From contig WJMI01000078.1 of the NCBI GenBank assembly GCA_014728015.1, positions 1 to 43,723 of the forward strand: a DNA stretch of 43,723 bases. The letters are read 5' to 3'. Below are positions 4,029 to 43,341 of this stretch, one piece after another (within the stretch, counting starts at the first letter, position 1; every line of letters starts with the position of its first letter). Source of the stretch: Chitinivibrionales bacterium (GTDB lineage Bacteria > Fibrobacterota > Chitinivibrionia > Chitinivibrionales > WJMI01). A program made the position numbers and the translations under genes. Below the pieces are notes generated by a model. That model was not told the DNA's origin. It was given only the letters and a program-made list of their open reading frames with translations, and did not search any database.

Positions 4029-4451
4029 TGCTGAATGTTTCGTGAGCCTTATTTCTTCAAGGTCCTGAAATTTTCCTTTTCTATCCGCACCTTTCCCCCG
4101 TCGGCGGTACCGCAGGAAGCGGAATTCCCCCTACAAGGGACTTCGGGCCTTCTTGTTCAAGCAATGAACAAAATAATGCGGGGGCGGAAGAATGGCAATT
4201 GCATCAAGAAAAGCCCGGGATTTTGCGGCGGGTCCTGGAATTCTTGGGTATTGTGAGCGGGCGTGAAGATCCCCTCACGCGAGTGATGGTCCGTGAGCTG
4301 GTGCGTATGATCGACACCTTGGACAGCGGAACATCGTCTTCAAGCATCGCGTGCCGGTGTTCCCCCCGGCCGGAGTTGTATCCCCGTATGTCCATCATTC
4401 ATTTTACGCCTGCTTTTCGCCCGCACAGGAACCAGAAATCCGGAGCGCGCG
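4029..4451. other. Intergenic region between EPS/TA genes and T6SS block
   Basis: This 423-bp divergent gap separates the minus-strand toxin-antitoxin remnants from tssA. No complete gene is convincing. One plus-strand frame from about 4142 to 4340 (containing RRVLEFLGIVSGREDPLTRV) has protein-like composition but breaks down into low-sense residues before tssA. It may be a remnant of a larger gene. I see no clear terminator or consensus promoter, though a tssA promoter is expected here. Confidence 0.4.
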
Positions 4452-38935: not shown

Positions 38936-38986
38936 CATCAATTCCGCAATGACGTAATTTATAAGAACACCCGGCCCGGAGGTTTG

Positions 38987-40138
38987 ATGCGCCAGACAAT
39001 CCTTTTTGCTGCTTCTGTCATCATCGCAACAGTGCTTGCCGTGCCGGCGTTGGCCGCCCGAAAGATTGTCGTGCCCAACGATGTCCGCACCATACAAGGC
39101 GCGATCGAAAAAGCGCAGGAAGATGACACGGTGTTCGTGGCCAACGGCGTGTATCGGGAGAACCTGACGCTGGTCGACGGGGTGGTGCTGCGGGGCCAGG
39201 ACGTTGACCGCACGATTGTCCGCGGCCGGCGGACCAAGCCGGTCGTCCGGGCCGCGCGCAACGCGGTCATAACCAATCTCACCATCGAGCGCGGCACGGT
39301 CGGCATTCTCAGCGAAAACACCAACGCGATTATCGAGCATAACGTGATCCGCAACAACGCGCGCACGGGGATTCAGTGCATCATCGCCCTGCCCCATATC
39401 CGCAACAACATCATCGCGGGCAACGGCTGGAGCGGCGTGTATTGCGAGCTGATCTCGCGCGCCGCGCGCTCGGCGATCGAGCACAACATCATCGCCGAAA
39501 ACGGCTACAGCGGGGTGATGCTGTCGAACCGGAGTGTCGTGCTTGTAAAGAACAACACGATATTCAACAACAAGGAGTACGGCATTTTCGTCGCGGAGAA
39601 CGCCAAACGCTCGCGCATCATCTACAATTCGATATACGGCAACCGCATGCCGTTCAACGCCTACGCGGTCATCGACGAGACCAACATCTCCAAAGATCCC
39701 CGGCTGCCGTCAGTGTCCGGCGCCCGCTACAGCGACATTTCCTCGATGGACTCACCGCTGCGCGGCATGGGCAAGGACGGGACCCAGATCGGGCTCGTGA
39801 GCGAATCGGTGCTGCGGCGGTCCACGCGTGATGTTGACAAGGACGGCGTGCCGGACAACCAGGACCAGTGCCCCGACGGCGCCGAAGACCCGGACGGGTT
39901 CGAAGACGCCGACGGGTGCCCGGATTATGACAATGATTTCGACGGGATCTACGATCAGTTCGACGAGTGCCCCGACGACCGCGAGGATTTCGACGGTTAC
40001 GACGACAAAGACGGATGCCCCGACCTCGACAATGACGGTGACAACGTCAAAGATGTCGACGATAAGTGTCCCAACAAGCCCGAAACGGTCAATGACTATA
40101 AGGACGACGACGGATGCCCGGACCAAAAGCCGCGCTGA
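38987..40138 (+). CDS. Exported beta-helix protein with TSP3 calcium repeats
   Basis: This 383-residue protein has a signal peptide ending ALA-A (about 24). Residues about 30-275 form a right-handed parallel beta-helix (DUF1565/NosD-like: VPNDVRTIQGAIEKAQEDDT, VFVANGVYREN, IEHNVIRNNARTGIQ, IEHNIIAENGYSGVML). From about 281 come thrombospondin type-3 repeats, D-x-D-x-D-G-x-x-D-x-x-D-x-C-P-x (for example DVDKDGVPDNQDQCPDGAED), at least four copies, which bind calcium. Probably surface-exposed or periplasmic. GGAGG lies before ATG 38987. The last 25 nt overlap the next gene. Confidence 0.83.
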   Translation: MRQTILFAASVIIATVLAVPALAARKIVVPNDVRTIQGAIEKAQEDDTVFVANGVYRENLTLVDGVVLRGQDVDRTIVRGRRTKPVVRAARNAVITNLTIERGTVGILSENTNAIIEHNVIRNNARTGIQCIIALPHIRNNIIAGNGWSGVYCELISRAARSAIEHNIIAENGYSGVMLSNRSVVLVKNNTIFNNKEYGIFVAENAKRSRIIYNSIYGNRMPFNAYAVIDETNISKDPRLPSVSGARYSDISSMDSPLRGMGKDGTQIGLVSESVLRRSTRDVDKDGVPDNQDQCPDGAEDPDGFEDADGCPDYDNDFDGIYDQFDECPDDREDFDGYDDKDGCPDLDNDGDNVKDVDDKCPNKPETVNDYKDDDGCPDQKPR

Positions 40139-43051: not shown

Positions 43052-43120
43052 ATGCGGAACGAATCTCTAAATTAATTGTAAGACAAAGTTGCATCATAAT
43101 GGGCCGCCGTGCACCATGAA

Positions 43121-43156
43121 GAAAGGCCCTGCCGGCGCGCGGCCGGAGGGCCTTTC
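43121..43156 (-). terminator. Intrinsic-terminator-like hairpin
   Basis: GAAAGGCCCT at 43121-43130 is the perfect reverse complement of AGGGCCTTTC at 43147-43156. A further CCGG/CCGG stem inside gives about 14 bp in all. On the minus strand the 3' arm ends in CCUUUCUUC, a modest U-rich tail, placing transcript end near 43118, about 65 bp before the PBP1A start. Confidence 0.6.
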
Positions 43157-43305
43157 AGTTTCTCTGGAAACCTCGCAAGGACTGGCGCTAACAGCCCTCA
43201 CCGGAGGCTCCTATTGTACGTTCGGTACTGATAGGATCACCTCCTTTCTTCAGGGCACCCGGAAACGCACTGGGAACTCCCCTGGTAAGCTCACCGTGCA
43301 GCGTT
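43121..43305 (-). ncRNA. Candidate structured RNA, about 185 nt, unrecognised family
   Basis: The predicted transcript starts at A43305 and runs left. Helices seen by eye: P1 AACGC/GCGUU (43305-43301 with 43268-43264) closing a three-way junction with two small hairpins; a long hairpin at 43244-43203 with stems GGAGG/CCUCC, CCUAU/AUAGG and GUAC/GUAC; a 7-bp stem AGGGCUG/CAGUCCU (43198-43178); GUUUC-CAGA-GAAAC (43171-43158); and a terminal GC hairpin (43156-43121). The 41-codon open frame through it (43188-43313) starts inside the -10 box, so it is unlikely to be translated. It shows none of the marks of RNase P, tmRNA, SRP RNA or the common riboswitches I know. Not confirmed as a gene. Confidence 0.55.
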
Positions 43306-43311
43306 ACTTCC

Positions 43312-43341
43312 ATTATATATCCATTGCAGCAAAAATGTCAA
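43312..43341 (-). promoter_or_regulatory. Near-consensus sigma-70 promoter
   Basis: TTGACA at 43341-43336 and TATAAT at 43317-43312 (minus strand) match both boxes perfectly with an 18-bp spacer. The expected start falls at 43306-43304, coinciding with the first base of helix P1 in the RNA candidate. This is the strongest promoter match I found in the window. Confidence 0.75.

Follow-up and report, generated by a model that had tools for sequence, protein, structure and literature searches.

Upstream of a gene for PBP1A in a Chitinivibrionales bacterium lies a strongly promoted, structured RNA, and the question that it raises is what this RNA is for: whether it controls the gene that follows, acts as a non-coding small RNA, or encodes something itself. 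The stretch analysed, hereafter the window, was the 43,723-nt contig WJMI01000078.1. The element proved real; it is new to Rfam, and its conservation extends across phyla. Judged by comparison of its sequences, the conserved object is a mini-mRNA composed of a pseudoknot, an extended Shine-Dalgarno (SD), an in-frame short ORF, a hairpin holding the stop codon, and a terminator. In the order of transcription, its features in the window and the basis for each were as follows:

43312–43341, − strand: sigma-70-type promoter, TTGACA-18-TATAAT (consensus scan, and promoter-like pairs at a similar distance in relatives)
43262–43304, − strand: helix P1 of a 5′ H-type pseudoknot, arms about 43304–43285 and 43279–43262 (arm-swap test)
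43251–43284, − strand: helix P2 of the pseudoknot, CAGGG 43284–43280 with CCCTG 43255–43251 (covariation, C[A/G]GGG / CCC[U/C]G)
43234–43248, − strand: extended SD, GAAAGGAGGTGATCC, complementary to the 16S rRNA 3′ tail (sequence match to the general anti-SD)
43203–43244, − strand: masking hairpin P3, SD and start (43244–43231) with ORF codons 6–10 (43214–43203) (folds, relatives)
43188–43232, − strand: mini-ORF, AUC start, 14 codons (ISTERTIGASGEGC), UAG stop (preserved reading frame, start site and stop among 36 sequences)
43166–43211, − strand: hairpin P4, whose loop holds the stop codon, and the outer extension P5 (arm-swap test for P4)
43119–43155, − strand: terminator-like GC-rich hairpin, then UUUCUU (fold of the window, relatives)

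The transcription unit, its relatives and its neighbours

The promoter was as perfect as originally described, with an 18-bp spacer: TTGACA (43341–43336) and TATAAT (43317–43312, − strand) matched the consensus at 12 of 12 positions, and the consensus scan returned 1 such site versus 0.3 expected in shuffles. Among relatives, promoter-like pairs in a similar place scored ≥10 of 12 in 22%, as compared with 1.1% of shuffled upstream regions. Transcription is predicted to start near 43305 and to yield an RNA of ~187 nt, close to the structured transcript of ~185 nt first proposed. The predicted fold of this transcript had a z of −3.8, and none of 200 shuffles was equally stable. The GC-rich terminator-like hairpin of the original prediction lies at 43155–43119; it was absent from the list given by the consensus scan and its T-run is interrupted. 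A hairpin and T-run occupy the terminator position in most relatives.

Relatives were collected using several approaches. A DNA search of 61 genomes returned four, in other genera, and a model, R1, added three further elements in two genomes. Using a pattern scan of one genome per species (84,980 species), we obtained 24 loci, in Fibrobacterota (Chitinivibrionales, Raymondbacteria, Fibrobacter sp.), Calditrichota, KSB1, Ignavibacteriae/Chlorobi, a Bacteroidetes MAG and OM182 Gammaproteobacteria. Run on 22 source genomes, a second model, R2, found one copy in most. It identified members in 11 of 40 Calditrichota genomes and 3 of 195 genomes of the OM182 order, and gave hits in 8 of 245 Ignavibacteria-class genomes, one of them (L094) by chance. 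The distribution of the family is patchy. Weak R1 matches inside Fibrobacter genes (L019–L023, L025, L028) were rejected on inspection, as were L011, L086, L088 and L094. Phage records contained no match to the element.

Against Rfam 15 (4227 covariance models), the window element had no match at the gathering cut-off, in agreement with the original statement that its family was not recognised; a scan of the loci of 18 relatives likewise assigned the element to no family. At permissive thresholds, Rfam returned only sub-threshold CC2171 (RF01867) and chance hits. No description of this RNA was found in the literature. A TPP riboswitch at 4300–4396 of locus L049 (75.3 bits) is unrelated to the element.

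The identity of the downstream gene in the window as PBP1A was confirmed. The element has the same direction as this gene and ends about 70 nt before its start, and a short ORF followed by a terminator is attenuator-like. A cis-acting leader or attenuator of PBP1A, named originally as an alternative only, is nevertheless very improbable: the genes that adjoin the relatives are unrelated between lineages, the next gene is often on the opposite strand, and the position upstream of one and the same gene that marks a cis-regulatory leader is not conserved. Because the neighbouring genes differ among lineages, we consider the element to be stand-alone; this independence is shown by comparison. Elsewhere in the window, an ORF at 38984–40138 (+ strand) ends in Asp-rich DxDxDG repeats that resemble, by eye only, the thrombospondin type 3 repeat.

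Conserved RNA structure

In a MAFFT alignment the arms of P1 and P4 are misaligned, and RNAalifold was consequently blind to both helices. We therefore used arm-swap tests, in which the pairing of each sequence's own arms was compared with that of swapped arms. For P1, own arms gave −15.8 kcal/mol versus −9.3 kcal/mol for swapped ones, and 0 of 2000 permutations were as good; the window's own P1 is among the more irregular ones. P2 alternates between CAGGG/CCCTG and CGGGG/CCCCG in relatives, and was weak by itself (50 of 2000 permutations). The same H-type pseudoknot can form in the 5′ part of most relatives; scored singly against shuffles, many sequences gave no clear-cut pseudoknot result. 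P4 also covaried (0 of 5000 permutations as good), and P5, which would compete with P3, was weak alone (224 of 5000). Arm-swap controls on non-partners gave 1163 and 16 of 2000, and composition contributes a little. The pairing of SD and start with the ORF in P3 was found in nearly all sequences, with some compensating changes, and folding favoured the masked state by a median of 5.2 kcal/mol among relatives.

Comparison thus shows the structures to be conserved. Covariation or conservation outside this genome had been proposed as a check, and is provided by relatives in several phyla and by the covariation of P1 and P4. The three-way junction of the original prediction did not survive: its closing helix appeared only in the single-sequence fold and drew no support from relatives (own arms −11.1 versus swapped −10.8 kcal/mol; 1285 of 5000 permutations did equally well). 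What pairs with CCCTG (43255–43251) in a conserved manner is CAGGG of the pseudoknot (43284–43280).

The extended Shine-Dalgarno and the mini-ORF

Just downstream of the pseudoknot, the element carries GAAAGGAGGUGAUCC, which we take to be the exact complement of the anti-SD, the near-universal 3′ tail of 16S rRNA. The complement is present in most members, and the SD:16S duplex has a predicted mean of −27.4 kcal/mol among relatives. The extended SD has a single exact occurrence in the whole assembly. We sought the 16S 3′ end of the source genome in the assembly and found it absent, since the SD string occurs nowhere else exactly. In two Fibrobacterota copies (G032 and G029b) the extended portion of the complement is gone; the maximal SD therefore appears dispensable. 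One Fibrobacterota genome (G029/G181) contains two diverged copies (L017/L084 and L029/L085), and in one of them part of the 16S complement has been lost.

In the window, an AUC start codon stands at optimal spacing from the SD. An in-frame ORF was present in 36 of 36 sequences (the window included, with a few near-duplicates), of 12–15 codons with one exception of 21. These sequences came from Fibrobacterota, Calditrichota, KSB1, Ignavibacteria/Chlorobi and Gammaproteobacteria. The start-to-stop length was 36, 39, 42, 45 or 63 nt, each a multiple of three; distances outside the ORF differed by one or two nt between sequences. The search pattern had left a gap of 9–39 nt free, and in 24 of 24 loci this gap was 15, 18 or 21 nt. 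In the first 28 sequences, the frame from the ATT/ATC seven nt past GGAGG was open for 13–15 codons in every case, and the other two frames had stops at scattered places. The start codon was partly imposed by the pattern, and hits obtained without it weigh most. Exactly at the ATT/ATC position, these had GTG (L090), TTG (L091) or ATG (L092 and L128), and G032, G029b, L087, L096 and L129 kept ATT or ATC. L092 and L128 differed by exactly one codon. In the four loci with canonical starts, which came from the Ignavibacteria-class search, CCC replaces CCU before the start. Stops among the 36 sequences were UAG (24) and UAA (12), with 0 UGA.

These observations bear on whether the RNA is non-coding and simply pairs with the 16S tail as an anti-anti-SD, its frame-keeping being a by-product of structure. 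The 16S-tail complement in most members and the strong structure are what such an RNA would have. Against it, indels between SD and stop are exclusively multiples of three, the start is exchanged among initiation codons, and close relatives differ by one codon. We judge that explanation improbable. Selection acts on start, frame and stop, as it would in a small protein-coding mRNA; comparison of the relatives shows this for the ORF as a whole, and its translation in the cell is predicted. Neither the 16S-tail complement nor the short ORF figured in the original prediction of a dedicated small RNA. That prediction holds in so far as the RNA is stand-alone, strongly promoted, conserved and covarying outside this genome, and of no known family; it gives way on the point of being non-coding, given the conserved mini-ORF.

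The window peptide, ISTERTIGASGEGC, is weakly conserved among relatives, with a consensus of roughly I-x-S-x-x-x-I-G-A-S-G-x-x-C/R over 12–15 residues. The peptide could be the active product, with the RNA structure tuning its translation, as in a peptide gene or dual-function RNA. Frame and stop are strictly kept, 28 of 36 peptides end in Cys or Arg (AGA/AGG Arg codons included), and serine codons interchange among AGT, TCA and TCT, all of which would fit. However, the 36-sequence comparison revealed no excess of synonymous change in the loop codons, and thus no selection at the level of the peptide was seen. Moreover, the Gly-Ala-Ser codons (GGA-GCC-TCC) are accounted for by their pairing with the SD, the final codons form part of the covarying P4 stem, and the peptides of the CC2171 relatives are quite different. 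An active peptide is accordingly the less likely reading, at perhaps one chance in a handful.

Predicted mode of action and relation to CC2171

Our preferred interpretation is that the element probably represents an undescribed family of stand-alone, self-masked mini-mRNAs that act via ribosome engagement. In this model, the strong promoter would produce the ~187-nt transcript, whose 5′ H-type pseudoknot would sit just upstream of the maximal SD. The SD would set initiation of a 12–15-codon ORF at AUC or AUU (in some relatives AUG, GUG or UUG), and translation would end at a UAG or UAA that lies in the loop of a hairpin. SD and start would be masked via P3 by codons of the ORF itself, a state favoured by ~5 kcal/mol in the median relative. 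Since the predicted SD:16S duplex (mean −27.4 kcal/mol) is far stronger than this masking (median 5.2 kcal/mol), a 30S subunit could open P3 by pairing through its 16S tail (about −27 kcal/mol), and a free subunit would be the natural trigger. The stop-codon hairpin may afterwards retain the freed ORF arm. Both this switching and a ribosome-directed function are predictions. Since conservation is clear in frame, start, stop and structure but weak in the peptide, the function most likely lies in the capture of ribosomes or in translation as such, as in a ribosome-engaging regulator or sensor, rather than a specific peptide.

Several known systems share parts of this design. In tmRNA, a pseudoknot lies upstream of a mini-ORF whose stop codon is in a hairpin loop. 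The element has the same arrangement, but it lacks a visible tRNA-like domain and has its own SD and start codon. E. coli infC is an AUU-started gene with an extended SD. In Staphylococcus aureus, extended SDs direct AUU starts, as in cvfC1 (PMC13009471). The choice of a non-canonical AUU start by an extended SD is thus shared with infC and cvfC1; those are ordinary protein genes, whereas the element stands alone, has only 14 codons and carries masking structures. Work on tisB-type toxin mRNAs describes a 5′ pseudoknot and a masked SD (PMC7708055, PMC11228461). The element is likewise a structured small mRNA with a masked SD and a pseudoknot in its 5′ part, but it encodes no hydrophobic toxin peptide and its ORF is far shorter.

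The element also resembles CC2171, an alphaproteobacterial sRNA and the best sub-threshold Rfam match: 18.8 bits, E = 0.05 (351-nt stretch), versus a cut-off of 75. The part of the window that this model matched best was GAAAGGAGGUGAUCC. Neither the window element nor the 18 relatives reached the gathering score of 75 bits. Conversely, R2 searched against CC2171 loci (113 kb) gave a best score of 15.6 bits (E = 0.0025), with seven matches driven largely by the SD; the matches checked fell at the CC2171 element. The CC2171 loci L057–L061 and L097–L126 had a fixed extended SD and a 14–27-codon ORF with a GTG or ATG start in 35 of 35 read. CC2171 thus shares with the element an extended SD (AAAGGAGGTGRTC), a short ORF and a terminator, and its AAGGAGGTGRTC motif is followed by GTG or ATG with the spacing seen for the element's start. 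The extended SD, the initiation codon at fixed distance and the short ORF lie outside Rfam's definition of CC2171. It differs in its GUG/AUG start and longer, different peptides; no comparable 5′ pseudoknot was seen upstream, and its SD has other pairing partners. The two have the same layout, and the sequences suggest that they work alike; a common family is not established by the scores. No report of CC2171 as translated was found in the literature. A Caulobacter ribosome profiling study (PMC4117421) reports translation of two RNAs earlier predicted to be non-coding.

A broader proposal, which we offer tentatively, is a new class of regulator in several phyla and, with CC2171, in Alphaproteobacteria: a self-masked mini-mRNA that would sense or titrate free 30S subunits via a maximal SD, its peptide a by-product. 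In both a seemingly non-coding structured RNA and a catalogued sRNA, the design appears to centre on the translation of a 12–27-codon ORF, driven by the strongest possible SD and, in the element, usually from AUU or AUC. If so, they provide a compact system in which to ask if free ribosomes are sensed or used by cells via a stand-alone RNA, and sRNA annotation can overlook ORFs with non-canonical starts. In locus L060 (Skermanella mucosa plasmid pSM-3), CC2171 lies at about 1510, directly downstream of an annotated hflX (82–1413), the annotation being that of a ribosome-associated GTPase.
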